Origin: Lutibacter sp.
GTDB lineage: Bacteria; Bacteroidota; Bacteroidia; Flavobacteriales; Flavobacteriaceae
Direction: 5' to 3'
Assembly: GCA_027449025.1 (NCBI GenBank)
Contig: DAIDMK010000004.1
Span: forward strand, 1 to 64,000
DNA: 64,000 nt
Shown: one piece after another, positions 23,978 through 33,562 of the stretch
How the letters are laid out: the number at the start of each line of letters is the position of its first letter
Position numbering within the stretch: the stretch's first letter is position 1
Made by a program: the position numbers and the translations under genes
The notes under the pieces: model-generated
The model's input: the letters and a program-made list of their open reading frames with translations, nothing else
What the model was told of the DNA's origin: nothing
Database searches by the model: none

Positions 23978-24322
23978 TCATTCTTTTCTTGATATGTCAG
24001 TCATTTCATAAGCATAATCTCTTACTGCGGAAATTTGCCTTTTAGTATTCATGGTTTCAAGAATTGAGATTAAAGCATCTTCATTTTCAGATTGCACATC
24101 CAGAATTACCAATTCTCCTTCAGAATTATATGCAGATGTAATTTTTAAATTTATTTCTGTATTATATAATATCTCTGAGCCAACTATTGTTAAGTCGGAT
24201 ATCAGTTTTTTTTCCTGAGGTTTAATATCTTTTGTTATAGGCTCGTCTATGAAAATATTTGTTGCAAATAAATTCATTGTTCCTATAACTAAAGCTAAAA
24301 CCAATAATTTAAATTTTTTCAT
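23978..24322 (-). CDS. small secreted protein, diverged member of the tandem family
   Basis: This 114-aa product begins with nearly the same signal peptide as its three neighbours (M-K-K-F-K-L-L-V-L-A-L-V-I-G-T-M-N-L-F-A), so it belongs to the family by descent. The mature part keeps the central strand pattern (Y-N-S-E-G-E-L-V-I-L-D-V) and a following helix. It has lost the terminal N-R-x-F-T-L-P-L-K-I motif found in the others. No ACTACAT-N4-ATGTAGT site lies in its 76-base upstream gap, so expression probably depends on read-through from the gene before it. Its function is unknown; it is either specialised or decaying. Confidence 0.75.
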   Translation of the reverse strand: MKKFKLLVLALVIGTMNLFATNIFIDEPITKDIKPQEKKLISDLTIVGSEILYNTEINLKITSAYNSEGELVILDVQSENEDALISILETMNTKRQISAVRDYAYEMTDISRKE

Positions 24323-24398
24323 TTCACTAGGTTTTAATTGATATTATTAAAGAACTTTTTGTAATACAAGCATCTTAATAATAAGTGCTTTTCATGTA

Positions 24399-24728
24399 TT
24401 ACCTTACAATTTTAAGAGGTAAAGTAAACACTCTATTCATTTCACCTGGTATATCTATAGTTCTATGATTCATACACTCATTTACGTAGTTTAAAACATC
24501 TTTGTCTTTAGAGTCTACTTTCAAAATAACTATTTTTCCTTCTGAATCAAATGTAAAAAGAACATTTACGCTTATATCTTCTTCAACAGCGAAATTGGGA
24601 GTTGTAAATAAGCTCGTAATTTGGTTTGCAATTACTTTTGCAGGAATGTCTGGAACTTCATTTGTTGTTGCGAACAAACTCATTGTTCCAATTGCTAAGG
24701 CCAAGGCCAATAAATTAAATTTTTTCAT
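24399..24728 (-). CDS. small secreted TonB-C-like protein (tandem family member 2)
   Basis: This is a 109-aa exported protein of unknown function with a signal peptide (1-20, ending S-L-F-A). The mature part of about 88 residues reads strand, strand, helix, strand: V-N-V-L-F-T-F-D-S-E-G-K-I-V-I-L-K-V, then D-V-L-N-Y-V-N-E-C-M, then G-E-M-N-R-V-F-T-L-P-L-K-I. That order resembles the C-terminal domain of TonB-type proteins but without a membrane anchor or proline linker; this is a pattern resemblance only. It is closely related to the next gene (long identical stretches in both halves). An ACTACAT-N4-ATGTAGT site lies 64 bases upstream. Confidence 0.8.
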   Translation of the reverse strand: MKKFNLLALALAIGTMSLFATTNEVPDIPAKVIANQITSLFTTPNFAVEEDISVNVLFTFDSEGKIVILKVDSKDKDVLNYVNECMNHRTIDIPGEMNRVFTLPLKIVR

Positions 24729-24761
24729 GATATTGTATTTTTTAGTTAGATATTAGTTTTA

Positions 24762-24809
24762 TAAAGTTACGCTATGATTATAGCTTTCGCAACTACATAT
24801 TAATGTAGT
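24762..24809 (-). promoter_or_regulatory. promoter with response-regulator palindrome (gene at 24399)
   Basis: ACTACAT (24792-24798), spacer ATTA, ATGTAGT (24803-24809); the -7 box on the minus strand is TAACTTTA (24762-24769). The palindrome ends 22 bases before the box, so it is centred about 45 bases upstream of the expected transcript start, a classic activator position. Confidence 0.75.
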
Positions 24810-24829
24810 ATTTGTAATATTAAGTTGAT

Positions 24830-25162
24830 TTACTGTTTTATTTTTAAGGGTAAAGTAAATACTCTATTCATTTCACCAGGAGTTTCAATCGTTTTATGAT
24901 TTAAAGTTTTATAAACGTAGTTTAAAACATCTTTGTCTTTAGAGTCCACTTTCAAAATAACTATTTTTCCATCTGAATCAAATGTTAAAAGTATGTTTAC
25001 CTTTAAATCTTCAGTGACATCAAAATCGGGAGCATCAAATAAACTCGAAATTTGAGATCCAATTTGTTTTACAGGAATGTCAGGCAATCCATTTGTTGTT
25101 GTTGCAAACAAACTCATTGTTCCAATTGCTAAGGCCAAAGCCAATAATTTAAATTTTTTCAT
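24830..25162 (-). CDS. small secreted TonB-C-like protein (tandem family member 3)
   Basis: This 110-aa exported protein is the closest relative of the gene at 24399. The signal peptides are nearly identical (M-K-K-F-K-L-L-A-L-A-L-A-I-G-T-M-S-L-F-A), and so are the central K-I-V-I-L-K-V-D-S-K-D-K-D-V-L-N-Y-V and the end N-R-V-F-T-L-P-L-K-I. Differences cluster in the mature N-terminal third (residues 22-55). That would fit a conserved fold with a variable surface, but this is inference. It has no cysteines in the mature part. Its own copy of the palindromic operator and the same TAA-type -7 box lie upstream, so it is an independent transcription unit of the regulon. Confidence 0.8.
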   Translation of the reverse strand: MKKFKLLALALAIGTMSLFATTTNGLPDIPVKQIGSQISSLFDAPDFDVTEDLKVNILLTFDSDGKIVILKVDSKDKDVLNYVYKTLNHKTIETPGEMNRVFTLPLKIKQ

Positions 25163-25194
25163 GATATTATATTTTTAGTTAGATATTAGTTTTA

Positions 25195-25240
25195 TAAAAT
25201 TACACTATGATTATGCTTTCGCAACTACATATTAATGTAG
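25195..25240 (-). promoter_or_regulatory. promoter with response-regulator palindrome (gene at 24830)
   Basis: ACTACAT (25224-25230), spacer ATTA, ATGTAG (25235-25240); the -7 box on the minus strand is TAATTTTA (25195-25202). Spacing between box and palindrome is the same, within one base, as at the neighbouring promoters. Confidence 0.75.
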
Positions 25241-25251
25241 GATTATGATTA

Positions 25252-25602
25252 CTATAAGCTTTCCCGTTTTATTTTTAGAGGCAAAGTGAATGCTCTATTC
25301 AATTCTCCGGGAGTTTGTATCATTTTGTGATCCATAGTTTTATGAATGTAGTTTAAAACATTTTTATCAATTTTACCTTTATCTTTGTCATACACACTTT
25401 GCACTACAATTTCACCTTCTGAATTAAATGTGAAAACAATATTTAAATTATAATCTTTCTCAATATTAAAATTGGGAGTTTTAAATAAGTCCACAACCTG
25501 AGTTCTAATTTCTTTTGCAGGAATATCTGCAGGCTTATTTGCTGCAAATAAACTTAGTGTTCCAATTGCTAAGGCCAAAGCCAATAATTTATATTTTTTC
25601 AT
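25252..25602 (-). CDS. small secreted TonB-C-like protein (tandem family member 4)
   Basis: At 116 aa this is the longest of the four paralogs. The signal peptide matches the family (M-K-K-Y-K-L-L-A-L-A-L-A-I-G-T-L-S-L-F-A). The mature domain has the same order, with F-T-F-N-S-E-G-E-I-V-V, a six-residue basic/acidic insertion (K-D-K-G-K-I-D-K) ahead of the helix, and the end N-R-A-F-T-L-P-L-K-I followed by a short extra tail. It is divergent from the histidine kinase gene; the 201-base gap between them holds the palindrome plus an extra half-site at 25699-25705. Its function is unknown. Confidence 0.8.
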   Translation of the reverse strand: MKKYKLLALALAIGTLSLFAANKPADIPAKEIRTQVVDLFKTPNFNIEKDYNLNIVFTFNSEGEIVVQSVYDKDKGKIDKNVLNYIHKTMDHKMIQTPGELNRAFTLPLKIKRESL

Positions 25603-25637
25603 GATATCTTGTTTTTAGTTGGTTAAAATTTGTTTGA

Positions 25638-25705
25638 TAAAATTAGGTCATGAATTTGGGCAGTGCACCTACATAATAATGTAGTTTTTTGAATATCAAC
25701 TACAT
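25638..25705 (-). promoter_or_regulatory. promoter with response-regulator palindrome in the divergent gap
   Basis: CTACAT (25669-25674), spacer AATA, ATGTAG (25679-25684); the minus-strand -7 box is TAATTTTA (25638-25645), again about 23 bases away. A half-site ACTACAT follows at 25699-25705. The site could serve the small-protein gene on the left and possibly the kinase gene on the right. Confidence 0.7.
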
Positions 25706-25803
25706 ATAGAGAGTATTTTTAATATATTTAATATATTTTGTTTATATTAATAAACTAAATTGCATAAAGGATTGGACACAACAGCGTGAAATAAATAAAA
25801 AAA

Positions 25804-28800
25804 ATGTTTTTCAACAGGCACAAAATCATCGCTTTTCTTATACTTTTTTATGTTTCTATAACGATAGAAGCACAAGAATTTACCACTGTTGAAAATGTAA
25901 CTAGTGGCTCCAAATTGCAAAATCATAATATTTTAGATATAGCCCAAGACTCGCAAGGCTTTTTATGGATAGGTACAAATTGGGGACTTTATAAATACGA
26001 CGGATATCAATTTAAACCTTATACAATTACCACAACACCCTCTCTGGTAAATAATAATATTAAATCGCTTTTGGTGCAAAACGACAGGTTATGGATAGGA
26101 ACTAAAGGAGGAATAAATATTATTAATACAAAAACAAATTTGAGTAAAAGTATAACAAGCTCAAGTAGCAATGGATTAGCGTCCAATTATGTCACAAAAT
26201 TATATAAGGATAAGGACAATAATATTTGGGTGGGCTATAATATTGATAAACTAAGTAGATATATTGGAAATTTTAAATTTCAACATTTTGATTTAAAAAT
26301 TAATAAAAATGGAATGCAATTTATTGTTGATGATATTGTAGAAACTACCCCTAATACTTTTTATGTAAAATTATTAAGTGAAACTATGAATGGCAGTTAC
26401 ATAACAATAATTGAGGCAAAGTACGATGGTAATAAATTAAACACGAAGGTTGTAAAAGAGGGCATAATGGATTATGTGTTAATATTAAATATTGACAACA
26501 AATTACATTTGATAGAAAGTAATAACCTGTATAAATTTAATAAAGTTCCAGGAAGTTTTAAATTCATAAATAATTTATTTAGTAAGGATAGTGTACAAAA
26601 TTTAAAATCATACATAAATAAAACCAATAGCATCTATATTGGAACTCAAAACAAATCATTTTATAATCTAGACAGAGAGACGTATTTACCGCAAAATTAT
26701 ACCATAATTAACGATGATGAAACTTGGGTAAATGCATTTTTTACAGATAATACGGGGCTTCTATGGGCTGGAACAACCAAAGGATTATTTAAGATTAAAA
26801 AAAACGCCAAATTATTTAGAAATCACTTACAAGAAGCCTCTGTAGGTTCTCGAAATAAAATGCGTTCAATTATACAAGATAAAAAGGGAGATATTTATGC
26901 GGTTAATCAAACAAATCTATTTAAGTATGATACAGTAAACAAGGAATTTATTGATTTAAAGTGGAAAAACAATAGCTCAGCACCCTATGCACTTTTAGAA
27001 TATGATGAAAATTCACTTCTTATCGGAACACTGGGATCAGGAATAAATATTTATAATAAAAACACAAATGCTTGCAAACCTTTCTTTAAAAAACATCAAA
27101 AATTATCCAATAACCACATCATAAAACTATTTAGGGATGCCCATGATATTTTATGGATAGGGACTTTGGATGGTTTATATTATTTTGATAAAAAAAATGA
27201 TGAAATTGTAAAAATTCAGAATTCTAGTTTACAAAAAGGCATAGAAGAAAGTGAATCAATATATGAGATTAAACCTTTTAACGAGAACGAACTATGGATA
27301 GGCACAAATACAGGATTATATCAATTAAAAGTAGATTATTCTGTTTTTCCTCTACAATTTCATACCACAAAATATAAAACGATCCAAGATGCCGTCAGGT
27401 CAATTTTAATAGATAACGATATATTATGGATTGCTACGCAAACCCAAGGTCTTTTAAAATACCAGAGTAAAACACACAAATTAACTCAAATTAATGAAGC
27501 GAATGGCTTAAGCAGCAATACTGTTTATTCCATTTTACAAGGTGAAAATCATAAGATTTGGTTAGGAACAAGAAAAGGCTTATCATGCTATAATACATTA
27601 ACCAATCAGTTTTTAAATTATTATGATTATGATGGTTTGGCAGGTAATGAGTTTAATGCATCCTCGCAATTAAAGGCTAATAACGGGGAATTATTTTTTG
27701 GTGGGCAAGATGGAATTTCACAATTTATGCCTTCGGATTTTGAGACAGGCGCAACAAATTTTAATCTGAATGTTAGCAGTATCAGTTGGTTTAATTCAAA
27801 AACCGATTCTACCTTTATAATAGATTCGGAGTATAGTTCAAATAAACCATTGGAGTTGCCATTTAACAATGCTTTTGTGAATTTTGAATTTTCACTGACG
27901 GATTATTTTAAACCTGCCAGCAATACTTTTAAATATAAAATTAGTGGTTTAAATAGAGATTGGAGAATGTTAAACAAAACCAATGTTCTTTCATTTACAA
28001 ACCTTCCACCTGGTAATTATAATTTAGAAGTAAAGGCATCAACCAACTATGGCAAATGGAACAATCAGAGTATTACTATACCAATCATTGTAGAGCAAAT
28101 TTACTATAAACGCCGGTGGTTTATAGCTATTTCGGGGTTCTTAATACTATTAATTTTCTACCTTATTAGAAAGTATGAACTAAGTCATATTAAAAAGGTA
28201 GAAAACCTAAGATTGCAAATTTCAAGAGATTTACATGATGAGTTGGGAAGTGCGCTTACCGGTATTGCAATTAGATCAGAACTTTTAAAAGATAATATAG
28301 GCATTAAGTCAAAAAATAAAGTTTTAGATGAAATCGCCGAACAGAGTAGAAGTGCTGTTGATTCCTTGAGCGATATTGTTTGGGCAATTGACTCAAGAAA
28401 TAACAGTATTCAGAATTTATCTGAAAGAATGGAAACTATTTTGTATTTGTTGCTTAAACCCCTAAATATAACATACACTTTTGAAACATTGCATGAGCGT
28501 AAACCCTTGTATTTAAAGCAAGACTATAGGCAACATATTTATTTAATCTTTAAAGAAGCGGTTACAAATATTGTAAAACACTCAAATGCCACGCATGTTA
28601 ACATTGCATTTACTAGAGAAGAAAATAAAATTAAGCTTAAAATTAATGATAACGGAACCGTAGTTTCTAAATCTACTGCCAATCTTAGTGGGCATGGCAT
28701 TAAAAATATACAAATGAGGGCAAAAAAAATTAATGGAGCTGTACAAATTAGCACAACAAATGGTTTTAGCATCGTTTTATCCTTTGATTGTTTAGGATAA
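25804..28800 (+). CDS. propeller-sensor histidine kinase (HisKA_3/NarX type)
   Basis: This 998-aa membrane sensor is built as a signal peptide (about 1-23), two seven-bladed reg_prop propellers (blades such as F-L-W-I-G-T-N-W-G-L-Y-K-Y-D-G) and a Y_Y_Y domain (around 690-765, L-P-P-G-N-Y-N-L-E-V-K-A). One membrane helix follows (about 780-797), then a HisKA_3 dimerisation domain with the phospho-acceptor His811 in S-R-D-L-H-D-E-L-G-S. The C-terminus is a HATPase domain (N-I-V-K-H-S-N-A-T, N-D-N-G, G-H-G-I-K-N-I). There is no fused receiver. It therefore phosphorylates a separate partner, almost certainly the LuxR regulator 75 bases downstream. The periplasmic ligand is unknown. Confidence 0.93.
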   Translation: MFFNRHKIIAFLILFYVSITIEAQEFTTVENVTSGSKLQNHNILDIAQDSQGFLWIGTNWGLYKYDGYQFKPYTITTTPSLVNNNIKSLLVQNDRLWIGTKGGINIINTKTNLSKSITSSSSNGLASNYVTKLYKDKDNNIWVGYNIDKLSRYIGNFKFQHFDLKINKNGMQFIVDDIVETTPNTFYVKLLSETMNGSYITIIEAKYDGNKLNTKVVKEGIMDYVLILNIDNKLHLIESNNLYKFNKVPGSFKFINNLFSKDSVQNLKSYINKTNSIYIGTQNKSFYNLDRETYLPQNYTIINDDETWVNAFFTDNTGLLWAGTTKGLFKIKKNAKLFRNHLQEASVGSRNKMRSIIQDKKGDIYAVNQTNLFKYDTVNKEFIDLKWKNNSSAPYALLEYDENSLLIGTLGSGINIYNKNTNACKPFFKKHQKLSNNHIIKLFRDAHDILWIGTLDGLYYFDKKNDEIVKIQNSSLQKGIEESESIYEIKPFNENELWIGTNTGLYQLKVDYSVFPLQFHTTKYKTIQDAVRSILIDNDILWIATQTQGLLKYQSKTHKLTQINEANGLSSNTVYSILQGENHKIWLGTRKGLSCYNTLTNQFLNYYDYDGLAGNEFNASSQLKANNGELFFGGQDGISQFMPSDFETGATNFNLNVSSISWFNSKTDSTFIIDSEYSSNKPLELPFNNAFVNFEFSLTDYFKPASNTFKYKISGLNRDWRMLNKTNVLSFTNLPPGNYNLEVKASTNYGKWNNQSITIPIIVEQIYYKRRWFIAISGFLILLIFYLIRKYELSHIKKVENLRLQISRDLHDELGSALTGIAIRSELLKDNIGIKSKNKVLDEIAEQSRSAVDSLSDIVWAIDSRNNSIQNLSERMETILYLLLKPLNITYTFETLHERKPLYLKQDYRQHIYLIFKEAVTNIVKHSNATHVNIAFTREENKIKLKINDNGTVVSKSTANLSGHGIKNIQMRAKKINGAVQISTTNGFSIVLSFDCLG

Positions 28801-28804
28801 TGAA

Positions 28805-28852
28805 ACTACATGTTCATGTAGTTTTATATATGTTTTTTATTGATTAAATTTA
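28805..28852 (+). promoter_or_regulatory. palindrome and -7 box ahead of the response regulator gene
   Basis: ACTACAT (28805-28811), spacer GTTC, ATGTAGT (28816-28822); then TAAATTTA at 28845-28852, 23 bases on. The layout equals that of the three small-protein promoters but on the opposite strand. It sits directly after the kinase stop codon and implies that the regulator controls its own gene. Confidence 0.75.
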
Positions 28853-28875
28853 AAAATGACTAAAAATCTATTATT

Positions 28876-29508
28876 TTGAATATTGCTATTGTAGAAGACA
28901 ATAAAATTATAAGAGAAGGATTGGAATTGTATTTTAAAAATGATTCTCAATTTTCTTGCGATATTGCTGTGGACTCTGTTGAAGCTTTTCTTCAAAGTAT
29001 TGGTCGTTGTTCAGAAATAGATGTGGTTTTATTGGATATAAATTTGCCTGGAATGAGTGGCATTGAAGGGATTCGCCATATAAAACACCAATATCCAGAT
29101 GTATATATAATAATGCTTACTATATTTAAAGATGAAAAACATGTGTTTGATGCTTTAAAAGCTGGGGCAAATGGTTATTTATTAAAAAATACGCCGCTAA
29201 AGTCAATAAAAAAAGGGGTACTGCAAATTTTAGAAGAAGGCGCACCTATTTCTCCTTTGGTCGCTAAAAAAGTAATTAACTACTTCAATCCGCAAAAAAG
29301 CAATAAAGAAGACGGATTTGAAAAATTAACTTCCCGTGAAATAGAAGTGTTACAGGCTTTATCGGAAGGGGCGCCGTTCAAAAATATTGCCGATAAATTG
29401 TTTGTCACAATTGATACTGTTCGTTATCATTCCAAGAATATTTATAGAAAATTAAATGTTAACAGTAAGTTAGGCGCTGTTAAAAAGTATCTAAAAAAGC
29501 AAGATTAA
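28876..29508 (+). CDS. LuxR/NarL-family response regulator
   Basis: A receiver domain (1-120) with acidic pocket E7-D8, phospho-acceptor D54 in L-L-D-I-N-L-P-G and the K105 region (G-Y-L-L-K-N) is followed by a LuxR-type helix-turn-helix (about 148-205, L-T-S-R-E-I-E-V-L and I-D-T-V-R-Y-H-S-K-N-I-Y-R-K-L). The length of 210 aa is normal. The frame opens with TTG: the nearby ATG in another frame is closed after seven codons, and the TTG start gives the canonical M-N-I-A-I-V-E-D-N. It is the likely partner of the kinase upstream and the likely reader of the ACTACAT-N4-ATGTAGT sites. Confidence 0.92.
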   Translation: MNIAIVEDNKIIREGLELYFKNDSQFSCDIAVDSVEAFLQSIGRCSEIDVVLLDINLPGMSGIEGIRHIKHQYPDVYIIMLTIFKDEKHVFDALKAGANGYLLKNTPLKSIKKGVLQILEEGAPISPLVAKKVINYFNPQKSNKEDGFEKLTSREIEVLQALSEGAPFKNIADKLFVTIDTVRYHSKNIYRKLNVNSKLGAVKKYLKKQD

Positions 29509-29851: not shown

Positions 29852-30307
29852 ATGATTTCATCCACACATCTTCACGCAATAATTATTCATTTTCCAATCG
29901 CCTTGTTAATGGTTGGATTTCTATCAGAATTAATTGGTGTCATTAGTCAAAAAGTATTTTTTAAAAATGCAGCATTTTATTTATTGCTTTTAGGTGCTTT
30001 AGGTGCTATTTCAGCTTATGTTACTGGTAGCTATGCTGGCGAGGGCGTAGAAGAAGGACCATTAAAAATTCCTATGGATTTACACGAGCAAGCTGCTCTA
30101 ATTACACTTTGGCTGTCTATAATTACCGCCCTATTTAGCGTGCTGATAAACTATTTTAAGATTCAAAACACAAAAGCAAAATGGGTAGGTGTTTTATTAT
30201 ATGCTTTATTGGCTGTGTCAGTTGGCAGAACAGGTTATTTGGGAGGGCAATTGGTTTTTAGTCACGGCGCTGGCGTTGAGTTGGCATTGCCAGATTTTAA
30301 CAACTAG
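29852..30307 (+). CDS. DUF2231 family membrane protein
   Basis: The 151-aa protein has four membrane helices and the DUF2231 signature H-x-x-x-I-H-F-P-I-A-L at residues 7-17, a second conserved H-E-Q-A-A at about 77-81, and G-R-T-G-Y-L-G-G-Q-L-V-F near the end. The family is thought to be a haem- or redox-associated membrane protein because of its conserved histidines, but no function is proven. It sits upstream of the rubrerythrin and cytochrome genes, which fits a redox role. Confidence 0.85.
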   Translation: MISSTHLHAIIIHFPIALLMVGFLSELIGVISQKVFFKNAAFYLLLLGALGAISAYVTGSYAGEGVEEGPLKIPMDLHEQAALITLWLSIITALFSVLINYFKIQNTKAKWVGVLLYALLAVSVGRTGYLGGQLVFSHGAGVELALPDFNN

Positions 30308-30559
30308 CCAAACTTGAATTCAATTTTCAAAACAATATGTTGTTATTAAGTATTTAAAGTTAATAGGGGAATTTTCACATAGTAAGACGGTCATAAATAT
30401 TAAAAATATATTGATACAAGTCTGTTCTTAAGCAGAAAACCAATCAACTTTAGGAACTGAGATAATATTAAGTAAACTTTAAGAGAGTGCTAAGAAAATC
30501 TAAATAAACCTATACGTAATTTGAATTATTAAATCTAAAATTAAATAAATTTTATTAAA

Positions 30560-31255
30560 ATGAAAAAATCAGTAATTATTTTTATGTTTGTAGCTTCAGT
30601 TTCTGGAGCTTTATTTCAATCTTGTACAGGCAAAACAGCCGAAAAAATTGAAATACCAACAACAACTACAGAACCAGTTGCAATGTCTATGGAAGATGCA
30701 TCTGCAGCAACAATTGTAAACCTACAAGCAGCTTTTAAAGGTGAAACAACTGCAAGCGCCAAATATGCAGCATATAGCAAAAAGGCTGAAGAAGAAGGAT
30801 TTCATGAAATCGCCCTGTTGTATCACGCAGCATCCGTAGCAGAAAACATTCACGCAGAGAATCATAAAGTAGTTTTAGAAGAAGCAGGTCAAACAGTACC
30901 TGAAATTACGCCAGAGTTTACCGTAAATTCAACCAAAGAAAATTTAAAAGACGCTATTGAAGGGGAAAGTTATGAATCCAATAAAATGTATCCAGAATTT
31001 ATGGTTACTGCAAAAAAAGCCAATAATGAACTTGCCGGAATTAGTTTAAATTATGCTTACAGAACCGAGTTGAAACACCTTGAAATGTATAAAGGTGCAT
31101 TGGCTGCTTTGGAAAGCGACAACGTGAAATCGTTGCCAACTGTTTACTTTATTTGCCCAACTTGTGGAAACACTTATCAAACTACAACCCCAAAAAGATG
31201 TGGAATTTCTATGACCAGCAAGGAGAAATTCCTAAAATTAACTTCACTTAGTTAA
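30560..31255 (+). CDS. exported rubrerythrin lipoprotein with incomplete rubredoxin site
   Basis: Rubrerythrins are di-iron proteins that reduce hydrogen peroxide. This one is 231 aa and starts with a lipoprotein signal (L-F-Q-S-C, Cys22), so it is outside the cytoplasm, unlike most relatives. The ferritin-like domain (about 48-185) carries the expected ligand pattern (G-E-T-T-A-S-x-K-Y, E-x-x-H-A-E-N-H, E-x-x-E-S-N-K-M-Y, E-L-K-H-L-E-M-Y). The C-terminal rubredoxin-like knot has C199, C202 and C214, but the fourth ligand position is Ser217 (R-C-G-I-S where relatives have R-C-x-x-C). A single base change would explain the loss. It has its own terminator and precedes the cytochrome operon. Confidence 0.9.
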   Translation: MKKSVIIFMFVASVSGALFQSCTGKTAEKIEIPTTTTEPVAMSMEDASAATIVNLQAAFKGETTASAKYAAYSKKAEEEGFHEIALLYHAASVAENIHAENHKVVLEEAGQTVPEITPEFTVNSTKENLKDAIEGESYESNKMYPEFMVTAKKANNELAGISLNYAYRTELKHLEMYKGALAALESDNVKSLPTVYFICPTCGNTYQTTTPKRCGISMTSKEKFLKLTSLS

Positions 31256-31277
31256 GCGAAGTTTATTTGTTTGTATG

Positions 31278-31310
31278 AATAAGTCCCGGTTTGTTCTGGG
31301 GCTTATTTTT
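31278..31310 (+). terminator. terminator after rubrerythrin
   Basis: AATAAGTCCC (31278-31287) pairs with GGGGCTTATT (31298-31307), including one G-U pair, and ends in a T run. Confidence 0.75.
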
Positions 31311-31344
31311 AATGATTGAAATTATACCCACTAAAATATATAAA

Positions 31345-32049
31345 ATGAAAACACTTGTTTGGACATTACCCACCAGAATTTTTCACTGGCTACTTGCTTT
31401 AAGTTTTACAACTGCTTACATTCTAGGCGATTTTGATGATCTTAAAAACTATCATTTTGCTTTCGGCGCTTTTGTAGGTGTGCTTATTATTTTTAGAATA
31501 TTGTTTGGACTAATAGGCCCAAAATATTCAAATTTTAGGGATTTCCCCATTGGCTTAAACCATCAAAAAGCGTTTGTAAAAAACTATTTTTCAAAAGATA
31601 ATTATGTCGGTCATAATCCTGCTGCTGCTTTGGTAATGCTATCTATTTTATTGGTTGGTTTGTTTTGTGGTATTTCAGGATATTTATTAACAGTTGATGG
31701 AAATAATGCCTTTAATATAATAGGCAATAATGAGTGGCTTGAAGAAGCCCATGAGGTATTGGCAAATGTGTTTCTTGGTTTGGTAATTATGCATTTAGTT
31801 GGCGTATTTTCAGATGCCGTTTTTCACTGGAAAACAGGAACATTAACCTCTATTTTTAACGGTTATAAAAATGTAGAAGCAGAAAATGCCAAATTAAATA
31901 TTTTTCAAAAGGCGTTTTCTATTTTGTGGTTTATTATTCCGTTTATTTTTCTCTATTTGGCTTTTGGTTTGCAAGAGAACAAATCACAAGAAAATAGCAA
32001 GTATAAAAATGAAAGATCAAGGCATGATGATGACGATGATGATGATTAA
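31345..32049 (+). CDS. cytochrome b561-family membrane protein with poly-Asp tail
   Basis: This haem b protein belongs to the bacterial b561/Ni-Fe-hydrogenase cytochrome b group and moves electrons between the quinone pool and periplasmic or membrane partners. The opening W-T-L-P-T-R-I-F-H-W motif, four membrane helices with conserved His (F-H-W, Y-H-F-A-F-G, A-H-E, M-H-L), and a normal core are visible. I start at ATG 31345 (234 aa) because the longer frame adds residues across the upstream terminator. After a last hydrophobic segment the protein ends in R-S-R-H followed by seven Asp, similar in style to the tail of the deca-haem gene two genes on. It is the first gene of a three-gene operon. 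Confidence 0.87.
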   Translation: MKTLVWTLPTRIFHWLLALSFTTAYILGDFDDLKNYHFAFGAFVGVLIIFRILFGLIGPKYSNFRDFPIGLNHQKAFVKNYFSKDNYVGHNPAAALVMLSILLVGLFCGISGYLLTVDGNNAFNIIGNNEWLEEAHEVLANVFLGLVIMHLVGVFSDAVFHWKTGTLTSIFNGYKNVEAENAKLNIFQKAFSILWFIIPFIFLYLAFGLQENKSQENSKYKNERSRHDDDDDDD

Positions 32050-32081
32050 GAAGTGTAAAAGTTTTTAAGACCAAGAAACCA

Positions 32082-32654
32082 ATGAAAAAATCTATTATAA
32101 ATAAGTATGCTATTCCATTCATACAATGGTACACCATAATGATTTTATTAACCATTGCAATAGATTATTTTCTTCATAGATTTCATATCGTTTTAAATGG
32201 AAGTTATCTTGGTTTTGCAGGAACTTTTGTAATTTTTTTATCGTTTTTTTATTCTTTAAAGAAACGTAAAATGATAAAATCGGGATCGCCAAAAAAACTG
32301 TTAAATCTCCACGAATACTTATCTTGGTTAGGCTCATTAATGCTTTTGGTACATGCAGGAATCCATTTTAACGCTATTTTGCCATGGCTGGCAATTTTAA
32401 TGCTGTTATTAACAGTTGCAAGTGGATTGGTGGGTAAATTTTTATTAAAAAAATCAAATCAAGATCTAAAGCAAAAGAAACAACTTTTGATTGCAGATGG
32501 AATGGACAAGGAAGCAGCTGATAAAAAACTTTTTATGGATTCAATAGTGGTTGATTTAATGAAAAAGTGGCGTATAATCCATATGCCTATCACATTACTT
32601 TTAGCCATTTTCTCAATAATTCATATTGTAACCATTATTATGTTTAGTATATGA
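32082..32654 (+). CDS. predicted di-haem b membrane cytochrome
   Basis: I do not recognise a named family. The 190-aa protein has four to five membrane helices. Two of them carry paired histidines spaced about one haem-binding helix apart (L-N-L-H ... L-V-H-A-G-I-H-F, and I-I-H ... I-I-H), as in four-helix di-haem cytochromes b. A soluble Lys-rich helix lies between them. Its position between a b561 protein and a multihaem cytochrome c, and its four-base overlap with the latter, support a role as a membrane electron carrier. Confidence 0.65.
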   Translation: MKKSIINKYAIPFIQWYTIMILLTIAIDYFLHRFHIVLNGSYLGFAGTFVIFLSFFYSLKKRKMIKSGSPKKLLNLHEYLSWLGSLMLLVHAGIHFNAILPWLAILMLLLTVASGLVGKFLLKKSNQDLKQKKQLLIADGMDKEAADKKLFMDSIVVDLMKKWRIIHMPITLLLAIFSIIHIVTIIMFSI

Positions 32655-33562
32655 AAAAATTTTCTATTTTATTTATAATAATCATCACTTTAATAGTAAC
32701 TTATTTGTATCCTCATAAGATGATTAATCCTGGTGAATTGTCACAAGGCCATCAAAATTTAAATAACAAATGCCTTTCTTGCCATCAACCTTTTTGGGGA
32801 ATTTCAAACGATAAATGTATTTCTTGTCATCAATTAAATGAAATAGGAAAAGACACATTACCTTCTGTGAACACTGCTCTTAATAAAAATAAGGTTTTAT
32901 TTCATGAAAGTTTCACAAATCAGAATTGTATGGCGTGCCATACGGATCATAAAGGAATAGATCCAAAATTATCTTTGGGTAAATTTGAACATTCACTAAT
33001 CTCTAAACCAGTTTTAAACAACTGTGTAAGTTGTCATAAAACTCCCGAAAACGAACTACACAAACAACTTACAACCGATTGTAAAAGTTGCCATAACACA
33101 AATGATTGGAAAGCTTCCAAAACATTTAACCACGAGTTGATTACTGAACTTAATAAAAACAATTGCACTTCCTGTCATCAATCGCCAAAAGATTCATTTC
33201 ACCAATCGGTAAAAACCAATTGTAACGAATGTCATACTACCAAAAAATGGGTGCCATCCACATTTGAACATTCTTCGTTTTTTGTGCTCGACAAAGACCA
33301 TAGTCCTAATAAATGCAGTACTTGCCATGTTGATAATAATTTAAAAAAATATACCTGTTATGGCTGTCACGAACATACACTATCAAATATTAGATCAGAG
33401 CATTTGGAAGAGGGGATTAGGGATTTTCAGGATTGTGTTTTGTGTCACAAAAGTGCTGATGAACATGATATTAGAATGAATAATATACCAAATTTCAAAA
33501 AAAATAACTCAGAAAAAACCAATTATAAAAAATCAAAACATGATAATGACCATGATGATTAA
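32651..33562 (+). CDS. deca-haem c-type cytochrome, membrane-anchored
   Basis: Ten CxxCH motifs are present (CLSCH, CISCH, CMACH, CVSCH, CKSCH, CTSCH, CNECH, CSTCH, CYGCH, CVLCH), plus many extra His able to serve as second ligands. A single N-terminal helix (about 5-20) anchors or exports the protein. The spacing resembles cytochrome c3/c7-like multihaem wires. It would accept electrons from the b-type partners and hand them to a periplasmic or outer-membrane acceptor that is not identifiable here. The tail K-S-K-H-D-N-D-H-D-D is His/Asp-rich. It overlaps the upstream gene by four bases (ATGA), implying coupled translation. The protein is 303 aa. Confidence 0.9.
   Translation: MKKFSILFIIIITLIVTYLYPHKMINPGELSQGHQNLNNKCLSCHQPFWGISNDKCISCHQLNEIGKDTLPSVNTALNKNKVLFHESFTNQNCMACHTDHKGIDPKLSLGKFEHSLISKPVLNNCVSCHKTPENELHKQLTTDCKSCHNTNDWKASKTFNHELITELNKNNCTSCHQSPKDSFHQSVKTNCNECHTTKKWVPSTFEHSSFFVLDKDHSPNKCSTCHVDNNLKKYTCYGCHEHTLSNIRSEHLEEGIRDFQDCVLCHKSADEHDIRMNNIPNFKKNNSEKTNYKKSKHDNDHDD

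Follow-up and report, generated by a model that had tools for sequence, protein, structure and literature searches.

A sensor histidine kinase, a NarL/FixJ-type response regulator and a row of small genes for exported proteins lie side by side in a Lutibacter genome, and these genes are likely to constitute a regulatory circuit, namely a self-contained and autoregulated two-component system whose regulon is very small. Read in this way, an otherwise unexplained gene cluster would become a compact circuit in which the operator can be read, the regulon is private and the outputs can be exchanged. Judged from titles and abstract openings, none of the publications listed by a literature search, with most subscription journals outside its coverage, is about this system.

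Architecture of the module

The module lies within a window of 64,000 nucleotides, which is the whole stretch of DNA that was analysed. Its six genes are the following.

23978..24322, minus strand: S4, exported protein of 114 aa with a partial S-type core and the C-terminal tail AVRDYAYEMTDISRKE; without its own operator, start 76 nt behind S3
24399..24728, minus strand: S3, exported small protein of 109 aa, predicted to be TonB-CTD-like (structure model); operator 64 nt upstream
24830..25162, minus strand: S2, exported small protein of 110 aa, predicted to be TonB-CTD-like; operator 62 nt upstream
25252..25602, minus strand: S1, exported small protein of 116 aa, predicted to be TonB-CTD-like; operator 66 nt upstream
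25804..28800, plus strand: sensor histidine kinase of 998 aa with a signal-peptide-like start, Reg_prop propeller, Y_Y_Y, HisKA_3 and HATPase_c
28876..29508, plus strand: response regulator of NarL/FixJ type, 210 aa, REC (D54) and GerE, TTG start

This six-gene layout and all its coordinates had been given correctly in the initial annotation, and Pfam domains confirmed the propeller kinase with HisKA_3 and the LuxR-type regulator that it had placed beside the small genes. The kinase matches Reg_prop (E 2.7e-28), Y_Y_Y, HisKA_3 and HATPase_c, the last of these barely over its cut-off (26.8 vs. 26.4 bits), and a hydrophobic segment lies near residues 772–790. Its chain ends after HATPase_c, and the regulator, which matches Response_reg and GerE, is encoded by a separate gene. 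String matching provided candidate phospho-acceptors, H811 in DLHDELG of the kinase and D54 in DINLPG of the receiver. The row of small genes is oriented away from the kinase, with S1–S4 on the minus strand and the kinase on the plus strand.

Two further features flank the regulator gene. An ATG at position 28856 of the window opens a seven-codon frame whose TGA (28877–28879) overlaps the TTG of the regulator (28876), and this frame (28856–28879) is possibly a tiny leader. Downstream of the regulator, at 29852–33562, the window encodes a DUF2231 membrane protein, a rubrerythrin-domain protein, a cytochrome b561-type protein and a multihaem protein of the cytochrome c3/c7 type, which perhaps form a redox cluster.

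The four small proteins (109–116 aa) have a signal-peptide-like N-terminus followed by about 90 residues, with no anchor and no room for a periplasm-spanning linker. The signal-peptide stretch, i.e. the first 20 residues, is very similar in all of them, while in the mature part S2 is 71% and S1 55% identical to S3. As the initial annotation had stated, three of the proteins end in NR(V/A)FTLPLKI; the fourth has a different C-terminus.

Predicted operator

The genome (3.34 Mb) contains exactly four copies of the pattern CTACAT-N4-ATGTAG, all inside the module and before S1, S2, S3 and the regulator gene, and none of the backward-read control. All four predicted operators match the pattern exactly and carry no strand assignment.

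25669..25684: CTACATAATAATGTAG, S1 promoter
25225..25240: CTACATATTAATGTAG, S2 promoter
24793..24808: CTACATATTAATGTAG, S3 promoter
28806..28821: CTACATGTTCATGTAG, between kinase and regulator, predicted to serve autoregulation

These sites span 4,029 bp, and equal closeness was obtained 0 times in 2,000,000 draws of four random positions. Relaxed forms of the palindrome were at chance level in the window (two mismatches, 4 vs. 2.1 expected; three mismatches, 6 vs. 3.6); the operator argument rests on the exact pattern, its genome-wide count and its clustering.

The same pattern follows the module across the genus. Nine module-bearing Lutibacter genomes contain 23 exact palindromes (4, 4, 4, 4, 3, 2, 1, 1 and 0; backward control 5), and the 29 module-free genomes contain 7 (backward control 6), all of them within open frames 150 codons or longer. 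Nineteen of the 23 stand before module genes or, in one case in genome G300, before a nearby gene; the remainder comprise one site before an unlinked S gene in G313, one in another intergenic stretch of G313, and two in open frames. Four of the seven sites in module-free genomes, together with the G314 site, lie in frames that resemble ftsZ. When exact non-coding sites are considered, they are present in 7/9 module-bearing genomes vs. 0/29 other Lutibacter genomes, with a chance probability of about 3e-6 if genomes are treated as independent. Moreover, the regulator gene is preceded by a site with 10–12 of the 12 core bases in all eight modules where this gene is seen. UBA4458 (G309) has degenerate sites only, and a site is missing before S4 in the window, in G311, in G300 and in one of the two G325 cases. 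A further palindrome of G313 (L217:1549–1564), located between a SnoaL-type gene and the gene for a protein of 243 aa that looks exported and matches nothing in Pfam, may represent an extra target.

Promoter geometry

Each operator of the window is followed at 22 or 23 nt by a match to the Bacteroidetes −7 element (TAnnTTTG, with five or more of the six bases).

25638..25645, minus strand: −7 element TAATTTTA, S1 promoter, 23 nt from the operator
25195..25202, minus strand: −7 element TAATTTTA, S2 promoter, 22 nt from the operator
24762..24769, minus strand: −7 element TAACTTTA, S3 promoter, 23 nt from the operator
28845..28852, plus strand: −7 element TAAATTTA, regulator promoter, 23 nt from the operator

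This spacing past the palindrome recurs in 25 of 28 site-bearing promoters, against a mean of 0.84 and a maximum of 4 in 500 single-base shuffles of the downstream bases. The three misses are the regulators of L. litoralis (21 nt) and UBA4458 and the unlinked G313 gene (L117), which has an exact site but no −7 match. The 28 promoters come from the window, loci L106–L113 and L117; 12/12 core bases are present in 20 of them and 9 to 11 in eight. They remained from 41 promoter rows after removal of eight kinase rows and five genes without a recognisable site (S4 of the window, L106 and L109, the first S4 of L113, and the second gene of L108). One retained row, L110, has 9/12 core bases, which is no better than the removed S4 of L109, whose best match lies 305 nt away.

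In the opposite direction, 0/28 promoters have a −7 element at 22–23 nt, so that driving of the kinase gene from the same site is not supported, and no site was found in a position to drive the kinase. The constant distance to a downstream −7 element puts the palindrome upstream of the start site, and on this ground its interpretation as a terminator or RNA hairpin was set aside.

The first T of the F. johnsoniae −7 element is described at −12 (PMC6847099), and in this numbering the palindrome centre falls at −42.5 to −43.5. As described for the E. coli ogt promoter, NarL activates from −44.5 (PMC7419079). A position near −43 is where an activator would sit.

Distribution and variation of the module in Lutibacter

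Regulator orthologs are present in 8/38 Lutibacter genomes, including the window's own, and the other seven are 75–92% identical. Among 299 Flavobacteriaceae genomes, in which up to 10 candidates per genome were scored, the regulator reached E ≤ 1e-60 in two, both Lutibacter. A ninth module genome, G325 (MAG LH_M87), encodes the first 67 residues of the kinase at the end of a contig, next to five small genes; a regulator gene was not seen there.

The sensor is variable. Orthologous kinases lacking the propeller are encoded in L. litoralis (G269; L108:7538–8746; 402 residues) and G300 (L109:9027–10175; 382 residues), and both keep the signal-peptide-like start, Y_Y_Y and the kinase domains. Since a branch with support 98/96 separates these two kinases in the kinase tree, the propeller was presumably lost twice independently. 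As natural deletions, they could show the purpose of the propeller. The full-length kinases of G299, G309 and G313 are 44–47% identical to that of the window in the propeller and 56–60% in the kinase domain; in the close relative G311, the propeller is 84% identical vs. 78% for the kinase domain.

The outputs vary as well. The place of the S genes is taken in L. litoralis by genes for two exported proteins (174 and 167 aa; L108:8984–10209), which are related to each other but not to the S proteins and have no convincing Pfam match; a palindrome precedes the first of them, and the S genes of this species are located elsewhere in the genome. As the same system is present in L. litoralis with no S genes in its vicinity, S proteins are not essential to it. 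In G300, a site precedes the gene for a SnoaL_2-type exported protein. Judged from the genes found at these loci, the outputs of the module are exchangeable within Lutibacter.

Fold and family of the small proteins

The mature S3 model, built with 16 sequences, has a mean pLDDT of 82 and a pTM of 0.70, and its elements follow the order H-E-E-H-E. In the Foldseek comparison, the first eight chains were TolA/TonB-type domains (best E 0.14, none ≤0.001), and in VIA-align, ranks 1–22 were all TonB/TolA domains (Z 6.9–4.7; next chain 4.2; none reaching 8). Searches with sequence profiles were less productive: Pfam had no match at E ≤ 1 for any of S1–S4, and its TonB_2 family reached 3/36 S relatives (best E 0.0029). 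A PDB profile search returned no TonB domain and one chance match, to a phage portal protein (E 0.66), and NCBIfam searches of the small proteins produced weak scattered matches only. According to the model, S1–S3 probably share the fold of TonB/TolA C-terminal domains, S1 and S2 as close relatives of the modelled S3; with all Z values below 8 and weak Pfam support, this kinship is likely rather than proven. The description of the small proteins as TonB-C-like without an anchor is likely for these three; S4 has a different C-terminus.

The last strand of the S3 model, residues 81–87, is FTLPLKI, the stretch that the initial annotation had highlighted. Strand beta3 of TonB is described as pairing with the TonB box (PMC11658791), and strand addition is described as the way in which TolA and TonB domains bind (PMC12204202). 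Taken together, the fold, the absence of an anchor and the conservation of the last strand lead to the tentative suggestion that S1–S3 are competitors or adaptors, i.e. unanchored TonB-like binders tuning envelope receptors, which would add their last strand to an envelope partner (a TonB box or similar) with no energy coupling. If S proteins bind receptors, they would constitute a layer of control over outer-membrane uptake; to our knowledge, no such layer has been described. An extended version, a regulated "TonB decoy" circuit in which anchor-free soluble TonB-domain proteins block or retune TonB-dependent receptors inside the periplasm and the S4 tail protein feeds back on the sensor, is improbable.

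The family extends far beyond the module. It is present in 128/299 Flavobacteriaceae and 23/38 Lutibacter genomes, and the mature-domain profile matched 40/395 sampled Bacteroidia genomes, the weakest by short partial matches. This widespread exported family thus resembles TonB/TolA C-terminal domains minus the motor-coupled half, and none of the 36 members scanned has a convincing match in Pfam. In Lutibacter, S is linked to the two-component system in 7 of the 23 S-bearing genomes. Outside the window genome, 89 loci were compared, i.e. those of the better-scoring 89 of 127 other family genomes with a match (38 were left out), with flanks, where the contig allowed, of about 1.5 kb on each side (29 loci) or about 4 kb (60 loci). 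A kinase-domain frame was found in one of them (weak, E 3e-4, at the far end) and a response regulator in none. The expectation that the small proteins in general have a kinase neighbour is thereby refuted, and a general tie of the family to a kinase was rejected. Given the genome counts and the near-absence of kinase neighbours, the S family is broad and mostly solitary; among the genomes surveyed, its kinase-linked form is seen only in Lutibacter.

Such a distribution suits the quite plausible reading, somewhat short of probable, that S1–S3 serve ordinary housekeeping or stress functions in the periplasm, as members of a widespread Flavobacteriaceae family that came under the control of this system in Lutibacter, and have no TonB-related role. 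This reading is compatible with the proposed circuit and competes only with the competitor or adaptor function. It gains from the presence of the family in so many genomes, from the single S copy per locus in 73/89 loci, and from the recurrent neighbours in the 60 loci with wider flanks (L121–L180), which are sucC (48), lysA (44), uvrB (39), a TerB-like gene (37) and Hsp20 (32), each named from one example. It has to face, however, the likely fold of a domain that is described as binding by strand addition (PMC12204202), and the separation of module copies from solitary ones, as a branch with support 99/97 sets 13 module S copies apart in a tree of 35 selected rows.

Kinase-less S copies of Lutibacter (L010, L114, L115, L119 and L120) often carry another repeat, GTTAAA-N4-TGTTAA (GTTAA-N6-GTTAA), about 80–100 nt upstream, perhaps an OmpR-type site. 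In eight genomes, this pattern occurs genome-wide at 61 sites vs. 35 for the backward control, a weak enrichment. Because of this other upstream repeat, S genes can be under other control. The palindrome itself might belong to another, e.g. more general, regulator, the kinase and its regulator being only neighbours of the small genes, and the degenerate sites of UBA4458 would fit this view together with the different repeat of several kinase-less copies. Nevertheless, it is an unlikely one, in conflict with the confinement of exact non-coding sites to module-bearing genomes, with the site before the regulator's own gene in each of the eight modules, and with the presence of just four exact sites in the window genome.

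The fourth protein

The signal peptide and the central part of the domain are common to S4 and S1–S3, but the ending of S4 differs. As the window S4 matches S-profile positions 24–69 (E 2.6e-5), it appears to be an S protein in which a tail has replaced the last strand. Its structure model is poor (pLDDT 64, pTM 0.40) and was left out of the fold argument. The "multigene set" of the initial annotation needs amending, as S4 is a different product.

As far as the sequences compared indicate, between modules S4 keeps the signal peptide and mostly the 16-residue C-terminal tail. In G300 and G313, the segment between these parts is unrelated to other S4 proteins (p 0.17–0.98), whereas the last 16 residues are related to each S4 except that of UBA4458 (p 8e-4 or lower), whose tail fits poorly (p 0.004–0.36). 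Two tail residues are identical in all eight proteins. Among the 38 Lutibacter genomes searched, the S4 profile reached its last position only in module genomes; three further matches stop at positions 112–113, of which the two in G301 and G304 have the ends of S proteins and the other one is in G332. The ending PxIxxKE was found, among all loci compared, only in module loci, in six different proteins from five genomes; it is not fitted by the S4 of the window (T for P) or of UBA4458.

These observations raise the possibility, in our judgement a slight one, that S4 is the centre of the system and its tail a signal or binding peptide (a kinase feedback ligand or a secreted peptide), with S1–S3 as companions. 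An S4-like gene does occupy the far end of the row of small genes in 7/7 S-bearing modules (two in G325), the tail alone is related to other S4 proteins in G300 and G313, and full-length profile matches and the PxIxxKE ending are confined to modules; yet peptide processing shows no sign in these proteins, the window tail lacks the P, the UBA4458 tail fits poorly, the tail is kept in G300 though the kinase there has no propeller, the L. litoralis module has no S4, and the S4 model is of low quality.

Proposed circuit

In the preferred reading, that of a self-contained two-component system, the propeller kinase would phosphorylate the LuxR-type regulator, whose dimer would bind CTACAT-N4-ATGTAG centred near −43 and thereby activate its own gene and a few exported-protein genes, S1–S3. 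S4 is probably transcribed by read-through from S3. The initial annotation had proposed that the small genes next to the regulator are activated by it, and the private palindrome, its fixed spacing to the −7 element and its co-occurrence with the module support this proposal at the level of sequence. The kinase may sense an external or envelope signal, as was also proposed there, and in two modules it lacks the propeller. It is through this co-occurrence that the palindrome is putatively assigned to the regulator.

Comparison with known systems

Hybrid two-component systems of Bacteroides polysaccharide loci have a periplasmic sensor composed of a Reg_prop propeller and Y_Y_Y, and the Lutibacter kinase has the same domains. 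In contrast to these hybrids, which combine sensor, kinase, receiver and DNA-binding parts in one chain, the Lutibacter system has its LuxR-type regulator as a protein of its own. Among the open reading frames listed around the module, no receptor or glycan-enzyme operon was recognised, and, unlike in polysaccharide loci, the predicted targets are small exported proteins.

The HisKA_3 kinase, the REC-GerE regulator and the inverted repeat with TAC...GTA ends resemble NarX/NarL and related HisKA_3-LuxR systems. NarL sites have a 7-2-7 arrangement, whereas TAC and GTA are two bases closer in Lutibacter. Unlike in NarX/NarL, the sensor is of the propeller/Y_Y_Y type, and the genome has only four exact sites. 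The predicted position near −43 is close to that described for NarL at ogt, −44.5 (PMC7419079).

Unlike TonB/TolA transducers, the S proteins have a signal-peptide-like start instead of a membrane anchor and no spanning linker, and those of the window have no Pfam match. Like the C-terminal domains of these transducers, S3 has a predicted helix-strand-strand-helix-strand order, and the conserved last S strand takes the place of the strand described as pairing with the TonB box (PMC11658791).
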